DNA of 64,000 bases. It comes from Sinomicrobium soli (GTDB lineage Bacteria > Bacteroidota > Bacteroidia > Flavobacteriales > Flavobacteriaceae). Of the stretch, positions 13,863 to 30,017 are shown in pieces (the first letter of the stretch is position 1; each line of letters starts with the position of its first letter). The position numbers and the translations under genes were made by a program. The notes under the pieces are model-generated. The model worked only from the letters and a program-made list of their open reading frames with translations. It did not search any database and had not been told where the DNA came from. The stretch lies in assembly GCF_003285545.1 (NCBI RefSeq), contig NZ_QLNV01000005.1:248001-312000 (forward strand). The letters are read 5' to 3'.

Positions 13863-14789
13863 TCAGCTGCCAAACCCGTCAAAATATTTTAATATCCCTT
13901 CTTTTTTCAGGGTTCTTTCAAATGCGATCAGTTCCTTTTCCGTCAGATTCCTGGCAGGTGTTCTCAGTGGTCCGCAGTCGATACCCGTAATTTTCATAAG
14001 GGGTTTTCCCCCGATGACCCCTCCGCCGTAACGGATAAGGATACGGATGAATCTCGCCGACAGTTCCTGCCATTTCCTGGCTTCTTCCAGGTCGTTTCCG
14101 GCGAATGCTTCCAGTATGGGACGATATAGTGCGGAGGCGTAATTATAAGTGCTTCCCACGGCTCCTTCCGCCCCGAGTGAGAGCCCGGCCAGCAGCGTTT
14201 CGTCCTGTCCGTGAAGAATGTCCCATTTCCGGTGTTTCCCGCGCATGCACACAAACATGTTCATCAGGTTGGCATGGGTGAATTTGATCCCTTTCAGGTT
14301 GGGTATTTCTGCTTCGGCCTGTTCTAAAAAATCGGGCATCGACAGATCGACACCGGAGATATCCGGGATGTGATAATAGTAAAAGGGAAGATCGGGTGCC
14401 GCTGCCGCAACTGTCTTGCAGTAGGCGACGAGGTCCGGTATCCCGGCCGGCTTGAGGAAGAGCGGCCCCATGGCCCCGATGGCATCGGCCCCGTGTGCCG
14501 CTGCATGTCCGGTAAGAGTGATGGCATCTTTGTAGGAAGTAGCCCCCACGTGTACCATGAATTTGAAATTTGGTGACCTGTGCAGGGCCCAGGCTTCGGT
14601 GAGCAACTTTCGTTCGTCCACGGTAAGCAACATGCCTTCTCCTGTGGTGCCACCTACGAAAACGCCGGAGATATTGTTGTTTTTCAACCGCTCGGCATAG
14701 GGGGATACCGCAGAAAGGTTGAGTTTACAATCAGGCGTAAAAGGGGTGTATGGGGCTGCGATCAGCCCCTTTATTTTGTTGTGATCCAT
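13863..14789 (-). CDS. nanA: N-acetylneuraminate lyase
   Basis: Class I aldolase of the DapA/NanA family, 308 residues, predicted to cleave N-acetylneuraminate to N-acetylmannosamine and pyruvate in the cytoplasm. Seen are GGTTGEG (46-52), the catalytic Tyr139 in YYYHIPD and the Schiff-base Lys169 in GIKFTH; the YYxxP-GVxLS context is that of NanA more than of DapA. The gene follows the GntR regulator by 53 bp and is the last gene of the sialic acid locus. A second, more divergent family member is encoded in the same locus at 19590-20531. Confidence 0.88.
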   Translation of the reverse strand: MDHNKIKGLIAAPYTPFTPDCKLNLSAVSPYAERLKNNNISGVFVGGTTGEGMLLTVDERKLLTEAWALHRSPNFKFMVHVGATSYKDAITLTGHAAAHGADAIGAMGPLFLKPAGIPDLVAYCKTVAAAAPDLPFYYYHIPDISGVDLSMPDFLEQAEAEIPNLKGIKFTHANLMNMFVCMRGKHRKWDILHGQDETLLAGLSLGAEGAVGSTYNYASALYRPILEAFAGNDLEEARKWQELSARFIRILIRYGGGVIGGKPLMKITGIDCGPLRTPARNLTEKELIAFERTLKKEGILKYFDGFGS

Positions 14790-14842
14790 GATATGTGTTT
14801 TTGTTTTTCCGGTAAAACGGCGGTGACCGTTTCGGTAGAAAA

Positions 14843-15604
14843 TTAATTGTCGGTTCGGTCTTCGGTATCTTCAGCCTTTTTCATGAAATCGAGATAGAGG
14901 GAAAGGTGCCCTTTTATGGCTTGGGAATATCCGGCCCTGTCGCCGTTTCTGATAAAGAGATAGAGATCTTCGTGGGTTACCAGTTTTCCCTGCTTTTTGA
15001 GTGTTTCGTTGATAGGTTTGAACAGGGAGTCATAGTGCGTTTTGGCAAATTCGAAAATGATATGGACAATATTCTGGAACTGGGTGATAAAAGGATTGCC
15101 GGCAATTTCGTATATCCTCTGGTGAAAGGCCTTTTCAAGTTCTACGGGCCAGTGGTTGTCTTCGTAGGTCTGCCCCTGTTCCACGATCTTTTTCAGGTCG
15201 TCGATATCGTCTGCGGTGCAGTTGTTGAATATAAAATCGACGATGCCTATTTCGAGCGCTATCCGCATCTCCATAATATCCTGTATCGTACGGATACTGA
15301 AAAGGTAGGGGTTGGTCACTTTTTCCAGGCCGGTGAGCAGGGGGGGTTCTACGACGGTAATCCCCTTTTTTGTCCGCGATTGGATAATGCCCAGCATGCG
15401 GAGGCGGCTCATGGCTTCCCGTATTACATTACGGCTTATACCCATGTTTTCGGAGAGAAGGGTTTCGTTGGGAAGGGTATCGCCGGGAGTGAGCCTGTTG
15501 TCCCGGATGTATTCCAGCAGCTTTTCTTCCACCTGGTCGACCAGGGTGGTTGTTGAGAATTTCAGCGGAGTTTTTGCCTTGAGATTTATTCCTTCATTAT
15601 TCAT
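14843..15604 (-). CDS. GntR-family transcriptional regulator, FadR/FCD type
   Basis: Protein of 253 residues. An N-terminal winged helix (about 20-85) contains LTPGDTLPNETLLSENMGISRNVIREAMSRLRMLGII, and an all-helical FCD ligand-binding domain occupies the rest. It is encoded between the symporter and nanA, so the likely effector is sialic acid or a breakdown product. Its own promoter and that of the distant susC gene carry the same palindrome ATTTGTA(G/C)TACAAAT, with a TTGT-NNN-ACAA core typical of FadR-type sites and overlapping the -7 element. This supports an autoregulated repressor of the whole locus (inference). Confidence 0.88.
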   Translation of the reverse strand: MNNEGINLKAKTPLKFSTTTLVDQVEEKLLEYIRDNRLTPGDTLPNETLLSENMGISRNVIREAMSRLRMLGIIQSRTKKGITVVEPPLLTGLEKVTNPYLFSIRTIQDIMEMRIALEIGIVDFIFNNCTADDIDDLKKIVEQGQTYEDNHWPVELEKAFHQRIYEIAGNPFITQFQNIVHIIFEFAKTHYDSLFKPINETLKKQGKLVTHEDLYLFIRNGDRAGYSQAIKGHLSLYLDFMKKAEDTEDRTDN

Positions 15605-15700
15605 TTTTCTGTTTTTAAGTTCTTCTCGTATCCGGGGTCTCGTAAAAAATATGCTCCTAAAATACGGGTTATATATCGATTGAATAAAAGTATAAATGTT

Positions 15701-15740
15701 ATTTGTACTACAAATATACGGAAAGCATAAATTTTAACAA
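15701..15740 (-). promoter_or_regulatory. gntR promoter with overlapping palindromic operator
   Basis: The 15 bp palindrome ATTTGTACTACAAAT is at 15701-15715. On the minus strand TTG (15740-15738), a 19 bp spacer and TATATTTG (15718-15711) form a consensus promoter whose -7 element runs into the palindrome. The same 15 bp sequence, with the central base inverted, overlaps the -7 element of the susC promoter at 29976-29990. Binding there would block RNA polymerase. Confidence 0.75.
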
Positions 15741-15760
15741 ATATAAATTATTATATACTG

Positions 15761-18436
15761 TCAGTTTTCATTGTAATCCCGGTTTTTCCTGATACTGTGT
15801 ATGTTTAGTCCTGTAATATCTTTTTGATACCCGGGAATGGCAAGGCTGCACAGGTAACTGAGCACAAAGCAGGAAACAAATCCCGTAGCTGCAAACAGCA
15901 GGGGATGCATATGGGTAAAGATGGTGAGCAGATACTGTATGACCGCGCTCAGCACCAGGCCGGACACAGCCCCGGGGCCATTGGCCTTACGGGTCACGAT
16001 CCCGAGCAGGAACAATGCGCCCAGCCCGCCTGCAAACCATCCTATAAACAACTGGAACTGGTCCCAGAGCGATTTTATGTTCCACGATGCCATTAAAAGG
16101 GCAAAGGCAATGCCCAGTATGCCGAAAACAAGGGTAGCCCAGCGCGCTGCGGACAATGTGCGGCCGGTATTCCTTTTTTTCATCCTGAAATAGAAATCGG
16201 TGATAAATGCGGTGGATACCGAATTCATGCTGCTGCTCAGGCTCGACATGGCTGCCGACAGCACCCCGGCAATAAGCAGCCCTGAGATCCCGGCCGGAAG
16301 CTGTGTGACGATATACCACGGAAATATGGCATCGTTGTTGGGAAGCGAAATATTCATATCGCCGGGATTTTCGCGATAAAACAGGAAAAGCAGGGTGCCT
16401 ATGCTGAAAAAGACAAGTGTTGCGGGAATGGCCATCAGGGCAAAGGTCCAGGCGCTTTGCGACGCTTCCTTTTCACCGGATGTAGTGAGATACCGCTGTA
16501 CCATGGTCTGATCTGTTCCGCTGGCGATAAGATTGGAGAAGATCCCTCCGAGAACGACTACCCAGATCGTGGGTTCCCTGAAATCGAGGGCCCAGTCCAG
16601 TATTCTGAGTTTATCATACTCACGGGCGATCTCTATTTCCTGTGCCATTCCGAGGTCCAGTTGCAGGGCAATGACAACGATGCTCAGTATGGCACCTCCC
16701 AGCAGGACCACAACCTGCAGTACGTCGGTCCAGATTACGGCTTCAATACCTCCCATCATGGTGTAAATGACGCTTACCGTACCCATTGAAAGAATGCACA
16801 ACTCTATATTGATACCTGTTACCAGGTTTATGGCCAGGGCGGGCAGCAGCAATACGATACCAACCCGGCCCAGCTGGAGTAGTATAAACGAGAGGCTTCC
16901 CATTAAGCGGGTGGCCAGGTTGAACCTTTTCTCCAGGTATTCATAGGCCGTAGTGATATTCAGCCTCCGGTAGAAGGGGATAAACAGGAATACGATAACA
17001 GGAGCCGTAAGCAGGGGGGTCATCTGGAAAAAGAAATAGGTCCAGTCTTCTGCATAGGTCTTGGCCGGAACAGCCATAAAGGTAATGGCACTGAGACTGG
17101 TACCGAACAGGCTGAGCCCTGCGGCCCACCAGGGGATACGCCCGCCCCCCTTGAAATAGTCGTCGGTAGACCTCTGTCTTTTCGAATACCTGACCCCGAT
17201 CAGTATCATGACAGCGAAGTACAGGATAATGACCGTATAATTCAGCCACCCGAAGGTTTTGCCGTGTGGCGCCATGCTGCCTTTCCAGATGTTCCTGGTA
17301 CGGACTCCGGGATGTATTTCCCCGCCGGGGATCAGGAAGCTGCCGTTGAGGGCTGCAATATTTGTCGTAACGGGCATATCGCCAGGGAAAGTGCCTGCTA
17401 TGGTCCAGGTATCGGTGATGGTATTGTAGGCGAGTATGTCTTTTGAAAACCCCCGGTGCTGTTCAAAAACCGAACCGAGGCTTTTTTTAAGGGCCTTCCG
17501 GTGTATACTGTCGGTAGCCCGGCGTATTCTTCTTTCCAGGGATTCCCGTTCCAGGAAATCCTTTCCGTCGTCACCACCGAAAACCAGGATGGTTGCAGAT
17601 CCCTTTTTTACTGCAGGGGCCGCCATAACACTATGCGGTTTTCCGCTACCGGTTGTTATATTTCCCAGGAGTGACCATGTTTTGAGTACGGGATCGTAAC
17701 GGTATCCGTCATACAATATGGCAGTTTGCTCCGGCCCCTGCGTTCTTCCCCCGAACAGAAAAAAGCTGTCTGTTTTGCCGTTGCTCTGCGTTGCTGCCGC
17801 AGGGTAGTTCCTGGGCGGTCCGGGACATCCGGGAAGTGTTGCCCATGTTCCGTCTTCACCGAGCTCCAGCAGTACGTTTTTATTGTTCCTGATACCGTGT
17901 ACCAGTACGGAACCCTGACAGACATCTCCGGCAACGGCCTTAAACCCTTCCGGGAGATCCTTCAGGGGAGTGATTTGCATGTTTTGTGTTACCGGGTCCC
18001 ACTCCAGTGCAATAACCTCAGGCACTATACCATTGCTGTTATCGCCTCCTATACACAGTAATCTGTTGTTCTGCACTACGGCGGCCCCGTATCCCATTCC
18101 GGAGGGGAGCCTGTACACCGTATCTTTCCATTGACGGTGGCCATCGGGTTGCAATTCGCATACGTAGATCTGGTCCCACCATTTTTTTTCTCCTCCTTTC
18201 CAGGGCATTTTCCCGGGAAAATTGGCACCGCCTGCAATGAGCAGGGTCCCGTTGGACACTCCGGAATAGCTACCTGCCAGTCCGGGCTGCCTGTCCGTAC
18301 CCTGCCCGGTGAGCCCGGGGTTTCCGGGAAGGGTATCCCAGAGTTCCCATTTTACATTCTGTTGTGCGGTCAGTACGGTAGTGTACAACACCAGAAAAAG
18401 AAAGGGGATAAGTGTTCTGTGGTACGGACTAATCAT
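15761..18436 (-). CDS. Sialic acid mutarotase-like Kelch domain fused to Na+/solute symporter
   Basis: Fusion protein of 891 residues. Residues 1-24 are a signal sequence. About 30-385 form a Kelch-type propeller with repeated GG/WD blades (LLIAGGANFPG, LCIGGDNSNG, FFLFGGRTQG, LVFGGDDGKD), resembling NanM and cyclically permuted mutarotases. From about 395 a sodium:solute symporter follows, with 13-14 hydrophobic helices and YFKGGGRIPWWAAGLSLFGTSLS near its start. The propeller would lie in the periplasm, where it could convert released alpha-sialic acid to the beta form at the mouth of the transporter. The gene overlaps the upstream sialidase gene by 8 bp. Substrate is inferred from context. 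Confidence 0.85.
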   Translation of the reverse strand: MISPYHRTLIPFLFLVLYTTVLTAQQNVKWELWDTLPGNPGLTGQGTDRQPGLAGSYSGVSNGTLLIAGGANFPGKMPWKGGEKKWWDQIYVCELQPDGHRQWKDTVYRLPSGMGYGAAVVQNNRLLCIGGDNSNGIVPEVIALEWDPVTQNMQITPLKDLPEGFKAVAGDVCQGSVLVHGIRNNKNVLLELGEDGTWATLPGCPGPPRNYPAAATQSNGKTDSFFLFGGRTQGPEQTAILYDGYRYDPVLKTWSLLGNITTGSGKPHSVMAAPAVKKGSATILVFGGDDGKDFLERESLERRIRRATDSIHRKALKKSLGSVFEQHRGFSKDILAYNTITDTWTIAGTFPGDMPVTTNIAALNGSFLIPGGEIHPGVRTRNIWKGSMAPHGKTFGWLNYTVIILYFAVMILIGVRYSKRQRSTDDYFKGGGRIPWWAAGLSLFGTSLSAITFMAVPAKTYAEDWTYFFFQMTPLLTAPVIVFLFIPFYRRLNITTAYEYLEKRFNLATRLMGSLSFILLQLGRVGIVLLLPALAINLVTGINIELCILSMGTVSVIYTMMGGIEAVIWTDVLQVVVLLGGAILSIVVIALQLDLGMAQEIEIAREYDKLRILDWALDFREPTIWVVVLGGIFSNLIASGTDQTMVQRYLTTSGEKEASQSAWTFALMAIPATLVFFSIGTLLFLFYRENPGDMNISLPNNDAIFPWYIVTQLPAGISGLLIAGVLSAAMSSLSSSMNSVSTAFITDFYFRMKKRNTGRTLSAARWATLVFGILGIAFALLMASWNIKSLWDQFQLFIGWFAGGLGALFLLGIVTRKANGPGAVSGLVLSAVIQYLLTIFTHMHPLLFAATGFVSCFVLSYLCSLAIPGYQKDITGLNIHSIRKNRDYNEN

Positions 18437-19586
18437 CGGTACCGATCTTCAGGGTGTGAAAAATGATCTGTTCGTAGGGATTTGCCGTTCCTCCTTCATA
18501 GAGCAATGCTACCGTATTGTTTTTGAGTACAGTCATGCTGGAATAGGCTGATGGTCCGGGGAAAACGGTTCGGATAAACGGCCAGGTCTTACCTTCGTCA
18601 AGGCTCATCCGGAGGCTCATGTTCCGCCGTCCGCCGGAGGTGGCCGGGTTGAGGAAGAGGAGAATGCCGGGCTGTTCCCCGCCGGGCCACCGGTATCTCA
18701 GTATACTGGCCTGGCATACGGGCTCCACCAGTTCGTCAACGGTATAGGGGGCCGTCCAGGAAAGACCGCCGTCGTAACTGATGGCGTGGGTGCGCTTATT
18801 TTTCCCGAAATAGGATCGCATGTTCATCAGCAAGGTGCCGTTTCCGTCTGCGAGTTCTACCACTTGGCATTCGTTTACTTTCGGCCGGATCGTACCACCC
18901 AGTTTCCAGGTGTCGCCGTGATCGTCGCTATAGATCACATGAGACCCGTATTCGAACGGCCCGTTCCGTACCTTGCCGCCGGGATCGTCGTAGCTGTGAT
19001 CTGAAGGAATGATGAGTCTTCCCTTACACGGCCCGTGTTTTACCTGGATACCGATGCCGGGTCCGGTTGCGTACCATCCCCACTCCTTCTTTTTAGTAGT
19101 GGGAGTGATCTCTTTCGGTGCCGACCAGCTTTTGCCGTCGTCACTGCTTTTCATGGCCCAGACGGTTCTTGTGGATTCCGATTTTTTGTGAATGATATCC
19201 GTCTCATGGTCATCGCCAAGGTTGTGGGTGAGCAGGAGGTGGATATCGCCGGTTTGCTCGTCGACCACCGGGCAGGGATTCCCGCAGGTATTGCTGCCAT
19301 CATCCCAGATCACGACCTGCTCGCTCCATGTTTTTCCGTTATCTTCGGAGCGCCTGAGCAGGATATCGATATTTCCGGCATCACCTCCGTCGTCCTTTCG
19401 TCCTTCACAGAAGGCCAGTAGCGTGCCTTTGCCGGTGGTGACCAGGGCAGGGATACGGTAAGTGTCGTAGTCACTGGTTCCCGATATGAATAAAGCAGAA
19501 GAATCCAGTGTTCTGACACTTTGGGCGCAGAGCGCGGGAATTTCTATCAGTAGTATTAACAAGACAAGATGAACTTTATGATTCAT
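18429..19586 (-). CDS. Exo-alpha-sialidase, GH33
   Basis: Secreted or periplasmic sialidase of 385 residues with a signal peptide ending near ALCAQ. The catalytic arginine motif YRIP is at 43-46, and five Asp-box motifs are visible (SEDNGKTW, SSDDGKSW, SDDHGDTW, SYDGGLSW, SLDEGKTW), marking the six-bladed propeller. It removes terminal sialic acids from glycans. It begins 3 bp after the lyase-like gene and overlaps the symporter fusion gene by 8 bp, so release, mutarotation and uptake are translated in tandem. A second sialidase with an extra N-terminal domain is two genes upstream. Confidence 0.92.
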   Translation of the reverse strand: MNHKVHLVLLILLIEIPALCAQSVRTLDSSALFISGTSDYDTYRIPALVTTGKGTLLAFCEGRKDDGGDAGNIDILLRRSEDNGKTWSEQVVIWDDGSNTCGNPCPVVDEQTGDIHLLLTHNLGDDHETDIIHKKSESTRTVWAMKSSDDGKSWSAPKEITPTTKKKEWGWYATGPGIGIQVKHGPCKGRLIIPSDHSYDDPGGKVRNGPFEYGSHVIYSDDHGDTWKLGGTIRPKVNECQVVELADGNGTLLMNMRSYFGKNKRTHAISYDGGLSWTAPYTVDELVEPVCQASILRYRWPGGEQPGILLFLNPATSGGRRNMSLRMSLDEGKTWPFIRTVFPGPSAYSSMTVLKNNTVALLYEGGTANPYEQIIFHTLKIGTDD

Positions 19587-19589
19587 GAT

Positions 19590-20531
19590 TTAAGGGTTTG
19601 TTTTTTGTATGAATTCCGGAATGATTAAGGAAGCCTGTTCTCTTAAACGAATTACCGTTTCATGTCCGGCTCCCTGGTAAGGCCATCGGAGTCTGGTGGA
19701 AACAGGTCCCCAATTACCTATTGCAGCCATTAATTTATCTGCTCCCTGGTTGGAAAGACCATGTTTAGTGATCAGGGGGGTGATACATGCATGGATAAAG
19801 GTCTGTATACGCTTTTCCAGTTGAAGCGCCAGATCGGCATTTTGGATAGCATTATTGTACCATTGCTGGGCAACATAGGGATTAAGGCAAGCTACGTTGG
19901 AATATGTTCCATGCATGCCTCTCCTGATTCCCGTGGCCATAAAGTGACCAGGGATAAATACTGAAATATAAGAGGTGAGGACATTCATTTCTTCATACCA
20001 CTGTTCGTTACCGCCACTTGTCTTGCATCCTGCAATCGGGATTTTGTTTTCGATGATTTTCCTGTAGTCTTCTGGAAGCAGGAATTTTTTGGAATGGGGA
20101 GGATTGTACAGGACTATTCTGACAGGGGCCGCTTCTCCGGTTACAGTGTCAAGAAAACTTTTAATCTCCGGGGTCGAAGGAGGAAACCAATCGGGGAGTA
20201 TCACCTGGATAGCGGTGGGATTTAGTGTTTTTGCCCTCTTTATCCTTTCAAGAGAGATTACAGGGCTCATATGGCTGCACCCTATTTGGAAAGGAATATT
20301 CTTTTTCAGGCATTTTTCCGATAGTATTAATTGTATCCGATCGAACTCCGATTCGGTCTGGTTGTAAAACTCTCCGGCAGTGCCATTGGAATAGATTCCA
20401 TTGGATTTTGCATCTATCAGGAGGTCAATCTCTTCTTCAAGGGCATACCAGTCTATGCCATTGTCTTTGTTAACGGGGAGTAATAATGTAGCCCAGTTGC
20501 CGAAGATATCATGTTGTCTTTTGTGTTGCAT
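19590..20531 (-). CDS. DapA/NanA-family aldolase, second and divergent
   Basis: Predicted cytosolic class I aldolase of 313 residues. It keeps a GTAGE version of the substrate loop (50-54), Tyr142 in LYNPPHS and the Schiff-base Lys170 in AGCKTSGG, so it should be active. It is clearly different from the nanA product of the same locus. Its place between two sialidase genes (14 bp and 3 bp spacing) ties it to sialic acid or a related keto-deoxy sugar acid, for instance a modified sialic acid or KDN; this is inference. Annotation as dihydrodipicolinate synthase would be misleading here. Confidence 0.8.
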   Translation of the reverse strand: MQHKRQHDIFGNWATLLLPVNKDNGIDWYALEEEIDLLIDAKSNGIYSNGTAGEFYNQTESEFDRIQLILSEKCLKKNIPFQIGCSHMSPVISLERIKRAKTLNPTAIQVILPDWFPPSTPEIKSFLDTVTGEAAPVRIVLYNPPHSKKFLLPEDYRKIIENKIPIAGCKTSGGNEQWYEEMNVLTSYISVFIPGHFMATGIRRGMHGTYSNVACLNPYVAQQWYNNAIQNADLALQLEKRIQTFIHACITPLITKHGLSNQGADKLMAAIGNWGPVSTRLRWPYQGAGHETVIRLREQASLIIPEFIQKTNP

Positions 20532-20545
20532 GCCTGTTTATTCCG

Positions 20546-22231
20546 TTACTTTCCGATCAGATCACTTAAAGCGATTTTCTGGAAAACCATATCTGCTTTG
20601 CTGCCTTCATAGAGTATACCTATGGTCTCTTCATCTACGGAGGTAAGACAGGAATACCCTCTTCCCTTTCCTTTGTCCAGCAACAGCCAGTACGCTTCCG
20701 GCCAGGTCTGCCCGTCGTCAAAGCTTACCTTTATGGTCATGTGGTCGCGGGCTGTTCTGGAATTGGGGTTGGAGAACAGCAAGATACTCTTCTTTTCTCC
20801 TCCTTCAAAATATTCGTGTTTGTGGATGCTGGCCATACAGGCGGGCTCTATAAGGGCTCCCCGTGATGTGGGGTGTTCCGACCAGGTTTCCCCGAGGTCG
20901 GCAGTGACCGAGATCACCCTTCCGTTTGTTCCGGAGGTGTTTCCCTTGTTTTTACCATCGCGTGCATTGAGCATGAGGGTACCGTCGGAAAGCTGTACGA
21001 CCATGTTTTCCGTAGTGCCGTGGCTGGCCATGTTGCTGGTAGTCCAGGTGCTCCCGTCCCTGCTCCAGGTGATATTGGAAAAGCTTTTGCCCTGGCTGTC
21101 CCTTCCCTGGGTCGGGAATACAAGGGTGCCGTCTTCGAGGGTAATTCCCTGTCCGGGAGCCGGGGCCCATAACCACCAGGATTCCTTTTTACACATTTCG
21201 GTAAGGTTTGTGGCACGGGCCCAGGTCTGTCCGTCATCAGTGCTTTTGGTGATGAGAAACTGGGAAGTTTCCTTTACGCCGAACCCGGGTTGTGACCCCC
21301 TGTTTTTCCACTGGTGGTTCCAGTCTTCGGAAGCTTCGGTAAGCCCTTCTACCCATTGTCCGCCGGAATTGATCACTCCATGCATCCAGAGCCCGGCTAC
21401 AAATATTGTATTGGTATTTTGATCTACCAGGACACAGGCATCACTGACGCCGTTAAACTTTTCGGGGAGGCCGCCCCATGCCCCCTGGTCCAGCACGATT
21501 TGCATGGGTTCCCAGCTTTGACCGCCATCGGTGCTTCTGCTCAGCCCGATATCTATATTGCCCTGCAGGTCCCTGCTTTTGTCCCGGCGAACATCGTATA
21601 TGGCCAGCAGGGTACCGTTTGCCGTGGTAGCCAGACCGGGAATGCGATAGGTGTTTACCCCGTCGTCTCCCGGTTTTCTCAGCGCTGTTCCCAGTCTGAG
21701 GGCTCCTTCGGGCGATTTGATATCCGGGGTTACGGCACTGTCGTTGACCGTAACCGACTCACAGGAAGCATCTATCCTGTGCAGGAGATTTGCTTCGTCC
21801 CTGAGCTTTACGGACAACCTGAAAAAGGCAGCTTTGTTCTTTACCTCGAGCTGGTCTGTGAACGTAATTTCGGAAGCGGGTTCCATCGTTTCGCCAAACT
21901 GGAGGTTTGCATTCGGTTTTGATGCATCTGTTCCCGTATAGATAAGCCTGAGCGACTCGATATCCCGGATATCGGTGGTGCCGTCGAGGGTTATTTTGAC
22001 ATTGCTGATTGTAAAAGAAGACAAACTGTTGGGGTGTAGTTTTATGTTCAGCAAAGTGTTATCTTCCATCTTGGTGAGGACGGGCACCTTGTCCTGGTAA
22101 GTAGTGGCTGTTATCTCTTGTTGTCGGTGCGGTAAATCCGGCGACTGTTTTTCCTTTTTACAGGCGAAAAAAGGCATACAGAGGACCAGTATGAAGAATA
22201 TGGGTCTGATTGTAATAGCGGTGGTTTGCAT
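20546..22231 (-). CDS. Exo-alpha-sialidase, GH33, lipoprotein with N-terminal domain
   Basis: Surface or periplasmic sialidase of 561 residues anchored as a lipoprotein (FFAC, Cys24). Residues about 40-175 form a beta-rich N-terminal domain as in Bacteroides-type sialidases. The catalytic region starts near 185 with TYRIPGL (Arg196) and contains Asp-boxes SRSTDGGQSW, TKSTDDGQTW, SRDGSTW, and SFDDGQTW. It lies 73 bp after the sulfatase gene and 14 bp before the lyase-like gene. With its different architecture it may act outside the cell while the smaller sialidase works in the periplasm. Confidence 0.92.
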   Translation of the reverse strand: MQTTAITIRPIFFILVLCMPFFACKKEKQSPDLPHRQQEITATTYQDKVPVLTKMEDNTLLNIKLHPNSLSSFTISNVKITLDGTTDIRDIESLRLIYTGTDASKPNANLQFGETMEPASEITFTDQLEVKNKAAFFRLSVKLRDEANLLHRIDASCESVTVNDSAVTPDIKSPEGALRLGTALRKPGDDGVNTYRIPGLATTANGTLLAIYDVRRDKSRDLQGNIDIGLSRSTDGGQSWEPMQIVLDQGAWGGLPEKFNGVSDACVLVDQNTNTIFVAGLWMHGVINSGGQWVEGLTEASEDWNHQWKNRGSQPGFGVKETSQFLITKSTDDGQTWARATNLTEMCKKESWWLWAPAPGQGITLEDGTLVFPTQGRDSQGKSFSNITWSRDGSTWTTSNMASHGTTENMVVQLSDGTLMLNARDGKNKGNTSGTNGRVISVTADLGETWSEHPTSRGALIEPACMASIHKHEYFEGGEKKSILLFSNPNSRTARDHMTIKVSFDDGQTWPEAYWLLLDKGKGRGYSCLTSVDEETIGILYEGSKADMVFQKIALSDLIGK

Positions 22232-22304
22232 GAATTTAGGATTGGCTTAAAGAGATTAATTTTTAAACATGATATTGTACAGAAAATGTTTCCTATGGTT
22301 GTGT

Positions 22305-23711
22305 TTATGGCGACTGGATTTTCCTTTCCGGAAATTCCGGATTGGGAATGGCGAAACGGGCATTTGCTTTTTTAAGGTGTTTCATTAAAAGGGCTTTTAA
22401 TTTTTCGGTGATCTCCGGCATTTCAGAGCTGAGATCTGTGCTTTCTCCGATGTCGTTTGCCAGATCGTACAGTTCGGTCTGCTTATCCTCATAGAAATAT
22501 ATTAATTTATAGTCTCCCTGGCGAATTGCAGAACACGGCTTGGTGCCTTCATAAGATTTCGGAGGATGGTAATACGGAAAATGCCAGTAAAGAGATTTCC
22601 GTTTCAGTGCCGGTATTTTTCCGGTCCATAAGGGCAACAGGCTTTTACCGTCCGTATTTTCCGGATCGGGTTGCTCCATCAGTTCACATAGTGTTGGCAT
22701 GATATCCCACTGGATAACCGGTTCTGACGATTCCGTGTTTTTGTCGATCACACCGGGCCATTTTACCATAAATGGTTCCCGGATTCCTCCTTCGTACAGA
22801 TTCCATTTGTTGCCCCGTAAGGGAGCATTATCGGTATATTTGGGATGTCCTCCGTTGTCTGAGGTGAAAATGACCACGGTATTTTTTTCCAGGCCGTAAT
22901 GTTTCAAAGCTTTCAGTATCTGGCCGTAATAATAATCCATCGTTTCTACAAAAGCAGCGTATTTGATCCTGTCTTCCGATGCTCCCGGCATGCGTTTTCT
23001 ATATTTTTCGATCAGCCAGGAATTATTAGGTATAACGGGAGTATGTACATAATAGCTGGAGAAGAACATAAAGAAAGGCTGCTGTTCCTGTTGCTGTTTT
23101 TTGAGGAAACCTATGGCTTTTTGTACCAGCGTATCTATAGGAAATTCTCCTTCTTTCAGTTGTGCGGGTATCCTGTTCCTCTCATCGTACGGATGAGACC
23201 CGTAATGGTCGCTTCCTGTGGCAAACCCCTGTTGTAAGGGGCCGTGAGTATTGCTCCATTTCAGGTATTTCCCATTGTGTTTTGCAATATGCCATTTTCC
23301 GAAATATGCCGTATTGTAACCAGCCTTCTCTGCTATTTCTCCCAGTGTTATTTCTTCCAGGGGAAGTTCTAATGTCCTCTTTGGAGGAAGCAGGGGTTTG
23401 TCTGAGATACGTGCTTCGGTAGCGACAAATTCAAAGTGAAGCCGGGCGGGGCTTTTTCCCGTAATGATCGATGCCCGTGATGCCGAACAGATAGGAGCAG
23501 GGGCATAGGCATTCGTATATTTTATCCCTTCCGAGGCCAGTTGGTTCATGGAAGGGGTGTCGTGGTCATTATTACCGAAACATCCTATGTCCGACCATCC
23601 CAGGTCGTCTGCATACAGGATGAGGATGTTGGGACGGGATTGTTTTTCAGAGGTTGAACATCCGAATGCTGTTATTGCCGAAACACTGAACAGGAAGATT
23701 ATCTTTTTCAC
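22305..23711 (-). CDS. Sulfatase, family S1, lipoprotein
   Basis: Arylsulfatase-fold enzyme of 468 residues. The maturation motif is CSASR (Cys75), where Cys becomes formylglycine; ILYADDLGWSDIGCFG holds the metal-binding aspartates. YFGKWHI and FTSDNGGHP are further active-site segments. I place the start at the GTG at 23711, because the lipoprotein signal (ITAFGC) follows at once and the upstream gene stops at 23737; an in-frame ATG at 23777 would overlap that gene by 41 bp. The sulfated substrate is unknown, but the neighbouring sialidases point to sulfated sialoglycans. Confidence 0.88.
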   Translation of the reverse strand: MKKIIFLFSVSAITAFGCSTSEKQSRPNILILYADDLGWSDIGCFGNNDHDTPSMNQLASEGIKYTNAYAPAPICSASRASIITGKSPARLHFEFVATEARISDKPLLPPKRTLELPLEEITLGEIAEKAGYNTAYFGKWHIAKHNGKYLKWSNTHGPLQQGFATGSDHYGSHPYDERNRIPAQLKEGEFPIDTLVQKAIGFLKKQQQEQQPFFMFFSSYYVHTPVIPNNSWLIEKYRKRMPGASEDRIKYAAFVETMDYYYGQILKALKHYGLEKNTVVIFTSDNGGHPKYTDNAPLRGNKWNLYEGGIREPFMVKWPGVIDKNTESSEPVIQWDIMPTLCELMEQPDPENTDGKSLLPLWTGKIPALKRKSLYWHFPYYHPPKSYEGTKPCSAIRQGDYKLIYFYEDKQTELYDLANDIGESTDLSSEMPEITEKLKALLMKHLKKANARFAIPNPEFPERKIQSP

Positions 23712-23736
23712 AGAGAGATGCTTTACGGGATCGAAA

Positions 23737-25209
23737 TTAATGAGGAGTAGCCTTTTGCCATCCGGCTTTAAGTACATGACTCAATCGATCTACCTGTTCC
23801 GAAAACCTGTTATTGTTAGCCAGGTTCCTTGTTTCGCGAGGGTCATTGCGATGATTGTAGAGTTCTCTTGCTTTTACCTCTCTTGTCCTGAAATCCAGCC
23901 ATTCCGTATACCGGTAATTTCGCGTTCTTACGGAGTACCCCATAATTTCTGGTTCGTCCTTGTAAAACCACGGTCGGGGAAACTGGCTGAAGACTGCTTT
24001 TTTCCATTTCTTGTCTGGGTGGCTGAGCAGTGGGCCCATACTAATTCCTTCTACACCTTCGGGAGCGGGTAATCCTGCCAGTTCTGCCAATGTGGGATAG
24101 AGGTCAACGAGTTCTACAAGGGCATCTGTGTGTTCTCCATGTTGTTTTTGTCCCGGGACGGAGAGGATCAAAGGCACCCGGGTATCCAGTTCAAAATTGG
24201 TGGTTTTGCTCCAGAGGTTGTGTTCGCCCAAATGGTAACCGTGGTCACTCCACAATACGATTATGGTATTTTCCATGAGGTGGAGCTGCTCCAACCTGTC
24301 GAGAAGTTTTCCTATTTGAGCATCTATAAAGGAAGTACTCGCATAGTATCCGTGAATGAGCTCCCTTATCTTTTGCCGGGGAATCGGGCCTGATTCCGGA
24401 ATATCGGTATACCCTCTCAATTCTTTAGATGAATGCAATGCTACTTCCGGAGTACCGTCGGGTGTGTCGGGATTAGCCGGTAGCGGCAGGGATTCCCTGT
24501 CGTACATAGACCAGTATTTTTGCGGGGCACTGAAAGGCAGATGCGGCCTTCGGAATCCCACGGCCAGGAAAAACGGTTTATCTTTTATGGTATTGAGGAT
24601 ATTCACTGCTGCCCGCGACACTTTTCCGTCTACATAGGCGCTGTCTTCTACATTGGCATTTTCGGTAGCTGCTGCTTTCCATGAACCCTTTTTATTGGTG
24701 TTGATGTCAAGCACGTATTTTGGGCCGGCTTTCCCAGTAACAGCCAGGGTCTCCGGTACTGACCAGGAAACCAGGTCCTGTGCCTGTTCCGGGTCGTGAT
24801 ATATCTTGCCTACGCATTCGGTATGGTACCCGTGCTGTTTAAAATATTGTGGTAGGGTAACCACGTCAGGTAAAGCTTTACGGAAATGAGTGTTCAGATT
24901 CCATACTTTTGTACGGTCTGGCCGGCGTCCTGTCATAAGGGAGGCCCTGGAAGGGGCACATACAGCCTGCTGGCAATAAGCATTATCGAAAACAATGCCC
25001 CGGGCTGCCAGCCTGTCAATGTTCGGAGTAATTGCTACAGAGTTTCCATAGCACCCCAGATTGGGACGCAAATCATCTACGGCGATAAAAAGTATGTTAG
25101 GTTTATTCTTTACTGCTCTCTTTTGAGCATTGCACGTAATACTCAATATCAGGGTAAGAATAAGAAACAATAGAAGATTGTTTTTGTACATTTTTTTCAT
25201 GATAAACAC
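23737..25209 (-). CDS. Sulfatase, family S1, iduronate-2-sulfatase-like
   Basis: Sulfatase of 490 residues with a signal peptide ending near CNAQ (28-29). The FGly motif CAPSR begins at Cys84, and AVDDLRPNLGCYG, CVGKIYH and WSDHGYHLGEH are intact. The DDLRPNLGCYG plus GKIYH combination is that of iduronate-2-sulfatase-like enzymes rather than arylsulfatase A types, so the two sulfatases in the locus should have different targets. It starts 30 bp after the susD gene. Three in-frame ATGs occur within the first seven codons; the first is used here. Confidence 0.88.
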   Translation of the reverse strand: MFIMKKMYKNNLLLFLILTLILSITCNAQKRAVKNKPNILFIAVDDLRPNLGCYGNSVAITPNIDRLAARGIVFDNAYCQQAVCAPSRASLMTGRRPDRTKVWNLNTHFRKALPDVVTLPQYFKQHGYHTECVGKIYHDPEQAQDLVSWSVPETLAVTGKAGPKYVLDINTNKKGSWKAAATENANVEDSAYVDGKVSRAAVNILNTIKDKPFFLAVGFRRPHLPFSAPQKYWSMYDRESLPLPANPDTPDGTPEVALHSSKELRGYTDIPESGPIPRQKIRELIHGYYASTSFIDAQIGKLLDRLEQLHLMENTIIVLWSDHGYHLGEHNLWSKTTNFELDTRVPLILSVPGQKQHGEHTDALVELVDLYPTLAELAGLPAPEGVEGISMGPLLSHPDKKWKKAVFSQFPRPWFYKDEPEIMGYSVRTRNYRYTEWLDFRTREVKARELYNHRNDPRETRNLANNNRFSEQVDRLSHVLKAGWQKATPH

Positions 25210-25239
25210 TTTGAATAGAAGCAGGCACTGTGCCTGATT

Positions 25240-26730
25240 TTAATAACCTTCGGTCTGTTTGATATTGAAGTTTCTGCTCAACACGTCCTGTGCGACGGGA
25301 AACAGTAATATGTTGCCTTCATTTTCACCTTCTCTTCCGATTAAGGAAGGGATGATTTGAAACGACTGACCGAAACGCTGTATGTCGTACCAGGATTTGC
25401 CTTCGAGTACAAACTCCAGGATGCGTTCCTTCAGTATGGCATTATCAATTTCCGAAGTTCCCAACCCTGTGTAGTAGTTGTCTACATTATAGGCGCGTTT
25501 GGCTATTTTATTCAGATAAGTTATTGCTTCGCCGGTATTGTCCAGTGCATTCTCAATTTCCGCCTTGAAGAGAATGGCTTCGGCAAAACGATAGATAATA
25601 AGATCCGAAGTGGACAGCCTTGTACCGGAAACTTCTTCACCTATATACTTGTTGATCCAGGTAGTCACACTTCCGTTTTGGGCGGTGGCACTTTTCCAGG
25701 TAACGTCCGTTCTGGAATCCACACTTGCCGGATTCAAAACATTATTTAAAAAATAATCCGAAAGATCGAGCCATTGGGGGTTTGGAGCTACGGGGATCGT
25801 ATTGTGAAGGTCCGAAGGCACTACGTTTAATGAAGGAAGTGTAATATATGAGGGGTGAGTACCCGTTTGACTCCTCCCGGAACTACCATTCCTGTTCCCA
25901 TTACCGACTTCGAGGTCTGAATAGAAAACAGAGAGAATGATCTCGGAACTGTTTTCATCCCTGAAGACGGTTTCAAAATCAGGTTCCAAAGTATATCCGG
26001 CAGCCAGAACCTCGTCGATAGCGGTTTGAGCTTCCTGGAGGTAGGAGTCGCCTCCTCCTTCAATTTTGGCTATCCATAAATAGATGTCAGCCTTTAACAT
26101 ATTGGCAGCATTGGATCCTATATAATTGACAGAGGCTTCATCCCCTAACAGATTAAGAGCCTCGCTTATATCTTGTTTGACAAGTTCAAGGATTTCAGCT
26201 TTAGGACTTCTGGAGGGTTCCAGTTCTTGTCCGGTAGATTCAAAACCTTCGGTAACTAATGGAGCATCTCCCCATAGCTTGACAATCTGAAAATAGGCGA
26301 AAGCCCGTACAAAATGAGCTTGCCCGAGAGTATGGTCTTTTTCCGACGGATCAGAGAAGGGGATTTCGGCCCCTTTAGACAGGAGTAGGTTAGCATCATT
26401 GATCAACAGGTAGAGATCACTCCAGTTTGTGCCTGAAGAGGTCGGGTTTAACTGGTTTTCCCATATTTCATTCCATTCTGTGGCACTGGAAGCACCTTGT
26501 CCGTAATGCCCTGACCTGAATTCTCCCCATATCACAGTTTTCATGTCAAAGGTAGATCTGAACTGGTTGTACATACCGTAAAGAGCAGACCGGACATCAT
26601 CTTCGTTTTGCCAAAAAGATTCACTGGAGATGTTGCTTACGGGTTTGAGGTCTACGGTGTCCTCGCATCCTGTTAGGAATAGGATTGACAGGGAAATAAT
26701 TAAGGTGACAAGATTTATTTTTGTTTTCAT
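25240..26730 (-). CDS. SusD/RagB-family glycan-binding lipoprotein
   Basis: Outer-membrane surface lipoprotein of 496 residues with lipobox LTGC (Cys22). The TPR-like SusD fold is indicated by SESFWQNEDDVRSALYGMYNQFR, GQAHFVRAFAYFQIVKLWGDAPLVTE and the C-terminal ILKERILEFVLEGKSWYDIQRFG. It caps the SusC channel encoded 23 bp upstream and binds the oligosaccharide to be imported. The locus content suggests sialylated and possibly sulfated glycans. Confidence 0.93.
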   Translation of the reverse strand: MKTKINLVTLIISLSILFLTGCEDTVDLKPVSNISSESFWQNEDDVRSALYGMYNQFRSTFDMKTVIWGEFRSGHYGQGASSATEWNEIWENQLNPTSSGTNWSDLYLLINDANLLLSKGAEIPFSDPSEKDHTLGQAHFVRAFAYFQIVKLWGDAPLVTEGFESTGQELEPSRSPKAEILELVKQDISEALNLLGDEASVNYIGSNAANMLKADIYLWIAKIEGGGDSYLQEAQTAIDEVLAAGYTLEPDFETVFRDENSSEIILSVFYSDLEVGNGNRNGSSGRSQTGTHPSYITLPSLNVVPSDLHNTIPVAPNPQWLDLSDYFLNNVLNPASVDSRTDVTWKSATAQNGSVTTWINKYIGEEVSGTRLSTSDLIIYRFAEAILFKAEIENALDNTGEAITYLNKIAKRAYNVDNYYTGLGTSEIDNAILKERILEFVLEGKSWYDIQRFGQSFQIIPSLIGREGENEGNILLFPVAQDVLSRNFNIKQTEGY

Positions 26731-26753
26731 GTTTTTCTTTTTTTGACGTTAGA

Positions 26754-29700
26754 TCAAAGCCCTATTCTGGCGCCGATAGTGAATGTTCTGAAGGGAGGAT
26801 ATTGGCCATCCTGATGTCCTATGGTACCGCCCCTTTCAGGGTTCGGCCCTTTGTACTTTGTGAAGTAATACAGATTATTGCCGGTAACATAGAGCTCCAA
26901 CCGGCTGAGTTTGTTTTTGAGAACATCCGCCGGAACTTTATACGTTAGGCTTATGTTTCTCAAGCTGAGGTAGTCGCCCTTTACAGCGTAAAAATCACTT
27001 TTTCTCAGGTTGTCCTGATGATTTTGGTCGTGGAAATCCGATCTGGGCTGATTGGTATGTGCCGCATCACCCGGTTGCTGCCATGCGTTCAGTACACTGG
27101 TTGTTGTGGCAACTCTTCTGGTCTTATTCCCGTCCATCCACGCATGTACCATGTCTACAACAGTATGTCCCAATGCGTAGTCCATAAAAATATCCAGGGT
27201 GAAATTTTTATAGGATAAGGTATTGGTTATTCCACCTGTAGTAGTGGGAATCGAATTTCCTATTACAAACTGGTCAAGATTGGTAATGCTTCCGTCACCG
27301 TCGCGGTCTACCCATTCAAAGTCCCCCGCAAATTTTGTGCCCCTGCCAACTAATTGACCAGTTTGTGGATCATATCCGTTAGCGGATTGATCATAACGGG
27401 CATTGGCTGCCTGCTCCGGAGTGTCGATGAGGTAATCTACCTTATACCCGGTGATAGCTCCGAGGCTTTCTCCTTCTGCAATACCGCCTACACCTGAACC
27501 GTCGGGAAGTATGATGCCATTGATCCTGTTTTTATCGATACCTTCCCGATATGGTAATTTTTTCACCTTATTGGTATTGTAAGCAAAATTGAGGTTGGAA
27601 GTCCAGGAAAAATTTTCCGTGGCTATATTTGTCGATGTAATTCCGAATTCAATTCCCTGATACTCGACGGTTCCTATGTTTTGTTCTACAGAATTAAAAC
27701 CGGACTCCCGGGGAAGCTGGACCGTAAACAGCAGATCGTCTGTTCTCCTTTTGTATATATCCGCAGATACCTGAATTCTGCTTTGGTCTAAAAGCCCGAT
27801 TTCGATCCCGAGGTCGGTTTGCGTGGTTTTTTCCCAGGTTAACGCTGAGTTGGGCATAGCTGTTGCCGAAGTACCGGCATTTCCTCCATAGCGATATGCT
27901 GCCTGATAGACCCCCTGAGCTACAAACCTGCCTATATCATTATTTCCGGTGACACCATAACTCGCTCTTACTTTTAAGAAATCGAGCAGTTTTCCCTGGG
28001 AAAAAAAATTCTCTTTAGATATAATCCAGCCAAGTGATACACTTGGGAAATACCCGAAACGGTTACCTTTGCCAAATTTGGAAGAGCCATCTCGTCTTAA
28101 AGAAGCAGAAAACAGATACTTGAGATCGTAATTGTAATTCAGCCGGAAGAATTGGCTTACCAGTCTTTCCTTGGTTAGAGAGGTACTGGCGTCCTGTTTT
28201 GTGGGAGCTGCATTTAAGGTGGGGATATTGTCAGTAGCTCCTCCGTTTGCAGCCAGGGCCGCATTGTCGGTTTTCATGTACAGATCGGTAAAACCAAGCA
28301 GGAAATCAAAATTATGTTTCTCTGCAAGGATCTTTTTATAAGTCAGGAGTAATTCCGATTGTGTTGTTGTATAGGTATTCCGGTCTGCAGTAGCATTTCT
28401 GAGTTGGTTGAACTGATGTGCCTTTTCAAAATAGTCATAAGCATTTAACCGCACCTGAAGAAAAGTGCTACCTTTTATTACAAAATCATCTATGGGTTCC
28501 CAGCTCGCATTAACCCCGAAGGTGCCAAAAGTTCTCTGTGTCTTTGCATCTCGTGTTTCCACTATGAATTGCGGATTGGCCAATGTGGCATTGGTTCCCC
28601 AACCCGGTGAGCCATCGGGGAATCTCGATCTCAGGGTGGGAGCATTATGAACTCCGCGAGTAAAGATCGCCGCTTCATTTGGAAAACTATTTGTCTTACT
28701 GTAAGAGAAATCTGTTTTTGTGCCTATTTTTATACGTTCGTTGACCTTGAAATCCAGATTAACCCGCCCGTTTAAACGTTGGTATTTGGTTCCGATAGCA
28801 ATACCTTCCTGGTCGGTATATCCCAGTCCTGCCGCATATTTTATATTTTCATTACCTCCGGTAGCCGACAGGTTATAGTTTGACTGGAGTGCATCGCGAT
28901 AAAGGTGACCGGGAAGATCAGCATCCTGAAAGGTGATGGTTTCTCCTGTTAGGGGATCGACCATACTCTGCCATCCGTCCGGAACCGCTTCGCCTGATTG
29001 CAGTAGTCTTGGAGTCCATGTGCTGGCTTCGTCGTTTCCGATACCTGTAGGTTGAGCACCATCAAGCCATCCTTCTGTGTTACCGTAGCGGGAGGTTGCG
29101 ATTCTCGGTCGCCACCACTCCAGATATTCCCGGGCAGACAGTAGATCGTACTGCCGGTTAAAACTTTGTATTCCGGTAGTTACGTTCAGGTCGAGTCTTG
29201 ATTTACCATCCTTCCCCCGTTTGGTGGTTACGAGGATTACTCCATTAGAGGCCCTGGAACCATAGATGGAAGTGGCTGAAGCATCTTTCAACACATCTAT
29301 CGATTCGATATCTTCAGCATTGAGGTCGTTAAGAGTTCTTTGAAACCCATCGACCAGGACGAGAGGGGCATTGCTCTTGTTTATGGACGATCCTCCCCTG
29401 ATCCTTATCTGAAGCTCCTGTCCGGGCTGGCCTCCAATGGTTTTGACAGACACACCGGGTAGACGGCCCTGCAATTTGGAGCTAACAGTATTGGTGGGAA
29501 CGTCGGCCAGTTTTTCACCTTTTACCGTGCTTATTGCCGAAGTGACCGTTGCTTTTGACTGGGTTCCATACCCTACTACAACCACCTCATCAAGCGCTTG
29601 GGCATCGGTTTGCAGTGTGATCTCAAGATCACGGTCTTCGGTAACGACCACTTCCTGTGAAAGAAAGCCGATGTAGGAGACTACCAGAGTTGCCGTGGGC

Positions 29701-29942
29701 GTTACGTTTAGTTCGAACCTTCCGTCAAAATCGGTAGACGTACCGTTGGAGGTTCCTTTTATCATTACAGTGGCTCCCGGGAGAAGATTTCCTTCATTAT
29801 CCGTTACAGTCCCAGACGCGGTAAAGGTATTCTGGGCCAGTATCCCTTGTACTGATAGAAGAACAGCCAGAACAACCGCATATTGCCAGATGAATATCCT
29901 GTTTCTGCCCTTGTAGTTTTGGTCGGTGTTTTGTCGTTTCAT
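26754..29942 (-). CDS. SusC/RagA-family TonB-dependent transporter
   Basis: Outer-membrane receptor of 1062 residues. A signal peptide ends near GILAQ. A carboxypeptidase-like regulatory domain follows (GTVTDNEGNLLPGATVMIKGT), then the plug with SusC hallmarks (LDEVVVVGYGTQSK, VLKDASATSIYGSRASNGVILVTT) and a long beta-barrel ending in GARIGL. It imports the glycan bound by the adjacent SusD protein. It is the first gene of the sialic acid locus, with a consensus promoter overlapped by the GntR-type palindrome 34-75 bp upstream. Confidence 0.95.
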   Translation of the reverse strand: MKRQNTDQNYKGRNRIFIWQYAVVLAVLLSVQGILAQNTFTASGTVTDNEGNLLPGATVMIKGTSNGTSTDFDGRFELNVTPTATLVVSYIGFLSQEVVVTEDRDLEITLQTDAQALDEVVVVGYGTQSKATVTSAISTVKGEKLADVPTNTVSSKLQGRLPGVSVKTIGGQPGQELQIRIRGGSSINKSNAPLVLVDGFQRTLNDLNAEDIESIDVLKDASATSIYGSRASNGVILVTTKRGKDGKSRLDLNVTTGIQSFNRQYDLLSAREYLEWWRPRIATSRYGNTEGWLDGAQPTGIGNDEASTWTPRLLQSGEAVPDGWQSMVDPLTGETITFQDADLPGHLYRDALQSNYNLSATGGNENIKYAAGLGYTDQEGIAIGTKYQRLNGRVNLDFKVNERIKIGTKTDFSYSKTNSFPNEAAIFTRGVHNAPTLRSRFPDGSPGWGTNATLANPQFIVETRDAKTQRTFGTFGVNASWEPIDDFVIKGSTFLQVRLNAYDYFEKAHQFNQLRNATADRNTYTTTQSELLLTYKKILAEKHNFDFLLGFTDLYMKTDNAALAANGGATDNIPTLNAAPTKQDASTSLTKERLVSQFFRLNYNYDLKYLFSASLRRDGSSKFGKGNRFGYFPSVSLGWIISKENFFSQGKLLDFLKVRASYGVTGNNDIGRFVAQGVYQAAYRYGGNAGTSATAMPNSALTWEKTTQTDLGIEIGLLDQSRIQVSADIYKRRTDDLLFTVQLPRESGFNSVEQNIGTVEYQGIEFGITSTNIATENFSWTSNLNFAYNTNKVKKLPYREGIDKNRINGIILPDGSGVGGIAEGESLGAITGYKVDYLIDTPEQAANARYDQSANGYDPQTGQLVGRGTKFAGDFEWVDRDGDGSITNLDQFVIGNSIPTTTGGITNTLSYKNFTLDIFMDYALGHTVVDMVHAWMDGNKTRRVATTTSVLNAWQQPGDAAHTNQPRSDFHDQNHQDNLRKSDFYAVKGDYLSLRNISLTYKVPADVLKNKLSRLELYVTGNNLYYFTKYKGPNPERGGTIGHQDGQYPPFRTFTIGARIGL

Positions 29943-29947
29943 GAGTT

Positions 29948-29960
29948 ATTCGTTACGAAT
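29948..29960. other. Palindrome in the susC translation-initiation region
   Basis: ATTCGTTACGAAT, a 13 bp perfect palindrome with one central base, lies 6-18 bp upstream of the susC ATG where a ribosome would load. It could form a weak hairpin over the initiation region or be a DNA site. It differs from the GntR-type palindrome. Confidence 0.35.
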
Positions 29961-29975
29961 TATCATTTAAATACT

Positions 29976-30017
29976 ATTTGTAGTACAAATATAAATAAAG
30001 AGTTTTTTAACCTGCAA
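29976..30017 (-). promoter_or_regulatory. susC promoter with overlapping palindromic operator
   Basis: Palindrome ATTTGTAGTACAAAT at 29976-29990. On the minus strand TTG (30017-30015), a 21 bp spacer, and TATATTTG (29993-29986) whose TTTG lies inside the palindrome. The arrangement copies that upstream of gntR. The rest of the 309 bp gap between susC and pepP holds only the pepP promoter and AT-rich DNA without coding potential. Confidence 0.75.

Follow-up and report, generated by a model that had tools for sequence, protein, structure and literature searches.

Two copies of one palindrome, ATTTGTASTACAAAT, precede the two putative operons of a sialic-acid cluster in Sinomicrobium soli, and it is highly probable that they are the operators of a FadR-type NanR analogue (encoded at 14843-15604) that would repress both operons by blocking their promoters. 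The components are each of a type already known. Since similar pairs of sites are also present next to relatives of the regulator gene in many Bacteroidota, they very probably make up a genuine repressor system of a familiar type. The window referred to below is the whole 64,000-nt stretch of DNA that was analysed.

Both copies were found with 0 mismatches (15701-15715 and 29976-29990), as the first-pass annotation had reported. Read on the minus strand, each site is TATATTTGTASTACAAATA, in the form TATATTTGTA(G/C)TACAAATA. The features of the cluster are collected in Table 1. susC is followed by seven minus-strand genes with small gaps or overlaps between neighbours, nanA lies 53 bp behind gntR, and we infer that the eight-gene susC run and gntR-nanA are operons. 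The susC-side site is 34 bp before susC. The gntR-side site lies within the 156-bp gap that separates the eight-gene run from gntR-nanA, at the claimed 97 bp from the regulator gene (15701 minus 15604, the gntR start codon). The proposed regulon of about 10 genes likewise agrees with the number of closely spaced genes downstream of the sites (8 + 2 = 10).

Table 1. Genes, putative operators and putative -7 boxes of the sialic-acid cluster
Feature	Coordinates	Strand	Basis
Putative operator before susC, ATTTGTASTACAAAT	29976..29990, centre 29983	-	exact match; counterpart 5' of susC in closest related cluster
Putative -7 box TATATTTG, susC promoter, overlaps operator	29986..29993	-	sequence; consensus TAnnTTTG
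SusC TonB-dependent receptor, first gene of apparent eight-gene operon	26754..29942	-	TIGR04056
SusD	25240..26730	-	Pfam/domain match
Sulfatase	23737..25209	-	domain match
Sulfatase	22305..23777	-	domain match
BNR sialidase with BNR_assoc_N domain	20546..22231	-	domain match
Divergent DHDPS-family protein	19590..20531	-	domain match 4.9e-15
BNR sialidase	18429..19586	-	domain match
NanM mutarotase and sodium:solute symporter fusion	15761..18436	-	PF24996, PF00474
Putative operator before gntR, ATTTGTASTACAAAT	15701..15715, centre 15708	-	exact match; counterparts 5' of gntR relatives
Putative -7 box TATATTTG, gntR promoter, overlaps operator	15711..15718	-	sequence; consensus TAnnTTTG
GntR/FCD (FadR-type) regulator, proposed NanR analogue	14843..15604	-	Pfam GntR 2.2e-16, FCD 5e-16
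DHDPS-family protein, probable N-acetylneuraminate lyase (nanA)	13863..14789	-	NCBIfam N-acetylneuraminate lyase 2e-45, below cut-off

The genome (4,611,183 bases, 43 contigs, 99.7% complete) has the core TTGTASTACAA nowhere but at these two places, which excludes the many unrelated copies that would have spoken against a regulon; the reversed pattern, run as a control, was found three times on each strand of the same genome. With up to 1 mismatch allowed, the 15-mer WTWTGTASTACAWAW was found at five genome places, namely the two window sites and three asymmetric ones, and its control at 15. A search of the window with up to 3 mismatches gave no further copy of ATTTGTASTACAAAT; because 1.64 chance matches are expected at that tolerance, weak matches in the window are uninformative, and the case depends on the exact copies together with conservation. 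GlcNAc 2-epimerase family matches were also found outside the window contig (1.9e-68 and a weak 1.7e-4, on contigs C1 and C22); neither of these contigs has a palindrome site at up to 1 mismatch.

To follow the sites into other genomes, we collected relatives of the regulator in two ways. Among 60 genomes (S. soli included), the best regulator matches were 32-36% identical and gave eight loci in seven genomes. All eight have susC and susD matches (susD being short in L038), and in each a palindrome lies beside gntR and one or more others beside susC or nanA; seven have sialidase and nanA matches, L038 being the locus without. From a scan of named genomes the best 80 of at least 540 confirmed regulator relatives were kept. 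The 89 upstream regions, less six near-duplicates (L085, L086, L096, L106, L109 and L110), left 83 non-redundant loci, window included. In this set, nanA was matched in 64 loci, sialidase in 54, NanM/symporter in 56 and susC in 76. A match to one or more of the three nan genes (nanA, sialidase, NanM/symporter) is present in 72 of the 83.

We then tested 576 palindromes alike (64 half-sites with spacers of 0 to 8) in the 350-bp stretch that precedes the gntR match. TGT-N3-ACA, which had already been noticed in related loci before this test, had the top observed/expected ratio of all 576, being present in 72/83 loci versus 8.9 expected from base composition. The conservation at related nan loci that had been put forward as a check is thus borne out for a related palindrome. 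Upstream of 22 more distant GntR genes, the motif was found in none (0/22); these controls are loci outside the closer group and include several short partial matches, whose true starts may lie further upstream. Eleven of the 83 loci have no TGT-N3-ACA within 350 bp upstream of gntR; five of these are without a nan gene, and three (L091, L103 and L112) have a strong site further upstream.

We derived a matrix from 69 sites in the 80 named loci, retaining near-duplicates and leaving out the window and L034-L041. Its consensus is TATTATGTNNNACATAATA, of which the window sites are a variant with TTTGT half-sites. For this reason they score low: 14.3 for the gntR site and 12.8 for the susC site, with 106 and 113, respectively, of the 137 assigned sites scoring higher. 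A site scoring at least 10 precedes gntR in 73/83 loci, and of the 73 loci with a susC start in view 60 have one before susC, although in divergent loci the two may be one and the same site. To avoid circularity, only sites outside the gntR upstream regions, which had not been used for the matrix, were then counted. Most of these precede susC, nanA or another gene of the cluster. At scores of at least 14, 37/41 were upstream of another cluster gene, at least 12, 39/50, and at least 10, 42/63; such upstream stretches make up 10.2% of the sequence (binomial 1.4e-32 for 37/41, relatedness ignored). Three non-gntR sites with scores of at least 12, and seven with at least 10, lie inside genes. Sites away from gntR are thus less clean at lower scores, and the window susC site scores only 12.8.

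The palindrome had also been said to overlap a consensus -7 element. At both window sites this stands: TATATTTG fits TAnnTTTG, the sigma-A -7 consensus given for a flavobacterium (PMC9723704). As a general rule it does not, since the overlap as seen in the window was found at only 10 of the 135 distinct sites that precede cluster genes, i.e. both window sites and 8 of 133 others (one each in L039, L040, L041, L049, L050, L051, L054 and L067). The TTG 21 nt upstream of the susC -7 box and the TTTG 19 nt upstream of the gntR -7 box we take to be possible -33 elements. A further 23 of the 135 sites have TAnnTTTG directly upstream (start 15 to 19 bases 5' of the centre), and the remainder have it at neither place. 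The overlap is therefore a minority arrangement among related sites. Across 195 site-gene pairs, TAnnTTTG was present 10 times at the overlapping offset versus a mean of 0.68 per offset, and TTTGT half-sites were preceded by TAnn in 9/21 cases on the promoter side and 0/14 on the far side (Fisher p 0.005, relatedness ignored). At least five changes on the regulator tree are needed to account for the overlapping type at gntR (9/83 loci); this type is spread over five loci in the window clade of eight, three loci of the same genus and one Chitinophaga. Scans for sigma-70-type promoters and terminators (20 versus 22.2 and 27 versus 20.5 in shuffles, respectively) were left unused.

The window regulator has an N-terminal GntR winged helix and a C-terminal FCD domain (Pfam 59.7 each; cut-offs 27 and 24.3). 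FadR-subfamily operators are described as an A+T-rich palindrome with TKGT/ACMA boxes (PMC4494728), and the window palindromes are likewise A+T-rich with boxes of this type. In line with this published consensus and with the GntR and FCD domains, the earlier suggestion that the TTGT-NNN-ACAA core suits a FadR-type GntR protein holds up. A putative palindromic operator with the GT-N3-AC core of the subfamily lies near gntR, and by its domains and operator we assign the regulator to the FadR subfamily of GntR proteins.

E. coli NanR holds Neu5Ac via Arg128 and a zinc whose ligands are Asp172, His176, His222 and His244 (PMC8012715). In our reading of the alignment, these residues are matched by R114, E157, H161, H211 and H233, i.e. 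with Glu157 in place of Asp172; E. coli Gln221 stands opposite a Thr. With most of these Zn/Neu5Ac anchor residues matched in the alignment, a sialic acid is plausible as the inducer. The regulator has the GntR and FCD domains of E. coli NanR, its putative targets are likewise nan genes, and it probably works like NanR. The operators differ: in E. coli, three NanR dimers bind to direct GGTATA repeats (PMC8012715), whereas those proposed here are palindromes. Operator repeats of the E. coli type were rejected, as the window has no exact GGTATA direct-repeat pair (gap 0-6 bp), and the match to the NCBIfam NanR model (1.9e-26) reaches 93.2 bits against a cut-off of 260.

In the model that we propose, a dimer of the GntR protein would sit on each TGT-N3-ACA palindrome and cover the -7 box TATATTTG at both promoters, so that RNA polymerase could start neither the susC-to-symporter operon nor the gntR-nanA operon; the regulator would thereby limit its own synthesis too. 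Once in the cell, a sialic acid or one of its first breakdown products would bind the FCD domain, the repressor would leave, and both operons would switch on, inducing uptake and breakdown. What is observed is that the two sites are present, that the genome has no further perfect copies, that such sites recur at the regulator and transport operons of related loci, and that the two overlap a -7-like element; binding, repression rather than activation and the inducer are what the sequence comparisons lead us to expect.

It is unlikely that the GntR protein, while bound to the palindromes, acts as an activator or brings about repression by another geometry, such as a loop between the sites 14 kb apart. 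Many loci do have at least two sites, and most related sites are without a consensus -7 box on the operator, both of which would suit such readings. However, an operator on or just 3' of the -7 box would suit occlusion better than activation, and a 14-kb loop is not needed. Binding by another regulator is less probable still, and we regard it as very unlikely. The candidate would be a Crp-like protein, given that the predicted Bacteroides motif wwwTATGTTnTAnAACATAwww (PMC3878776) has TATGT and ACATA arms that resemble those of the family consensus. That motif was rejected on spacing, having six bases between TGT and ACA where the present sites have three. Moreover, the sites go together with this gntR subfamily, none being found before the 22 more distant GntR genes, and a global regulator would be expected to have more than two copies in the genome.

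A chance match in A+T-rich promoter DNA would be in keeping with sites at up to 1 mismatch being rarer than the control pattern (5 versus 15 places), i.e. with no genome-wide excess of the palindrome. Yet the sole two perfect copies precede both transcription units of one cluster and related loci carry similar sites, which contradicts this reading; we give chance almost no weight. Repression by promoter block at the two palindromes is the reading that we carry forward.

In the same phylum, the sialic-acid-use regulator predicted for Bacteroides, NanR (BT0433), belongs to the ROK family (PMC3878776), whereas the window regulator, with its GntR and FCD domains, does not qualify as a ROK protein. 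The survey of the FadR subfamily shows no Bacteroidetes protein in its table and, according to its text, sets NanR aside owing to the direct repeats (PMC4494728). In the open-licence literature, covered as titles and the starts of abstracts, we found no description of a GntR sialic-acid regulon in Bacteroidota. The present pair of regulator and operator is a testable one for sialic-acid loci in a phylum whose described NanR, in the sources covered, is a ROK protein, and the motif can be used to find such loci and their operons. The evidence leaves us evenly divided on a broader proposal: that many Bacteroidota control sialic-acid use in a third way, through a FadR-type regulator whose palindromic operators are found both at its own gene and at the SusC operon, and that in several branches (the window clade, three loci of its genus and one Chitinophaga) TTATGT has given way to TATATTTGT as the promoter-side half-site, so that a single sequence acts as a repressor half-site and as the special -7 box of the phylum. 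The shared -7 box and half-site offer a case for studying the joint evolution of an operator and an unusual promoter.

Among the matches listed, the closest cluster is that of Membranihabitans marinus, with a regulator 66% identical to that of the window and the order susC, susD, sulfatases, second DHDPS, sialidase, NanM-symporter, gntR, nanA. Both operators are kept: TATATTTGTCCTACAA before susC and TAATATTGTAGGACAA before gntR (also written TTGTCCTACAA and TTGTAGGACAA, respectively). In the regulator tree, the window regulator groups with Membranihabitans (Saprospiraceae) and three Prolixibacteraceae (support 100/96) and sits apart from the regulators of its own genus included in the tree. 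That its nearest regulator relatives are in Saprospiraceae and Prolixibacteraceae, and not in its own genus, suggests that the cluster (13863-29942) was acquired horizontally.

Several further features were seen. In some divergent gntR/susC loci, a second, weaker palindrome of the TTAAGTAATACATA type lies right at the gntR start (L063 9936, L082 9937 and L097 9938). The NanM-symporter fusion (15761-18436) is 891 aa long, with at least 750 aligned positions in 20/83 loci, window included. The second DHDPS-family protein (19590-20531, minus strand) sits between the two sialidases, and five related loci (L048, L051, L054, L103 and L112) have matches to it at 47-59% identity. The sialic-acid cluster also includes two sulfatases (22305-25209, minus strand), which suggest sulfated sialoglycans as its substrate.
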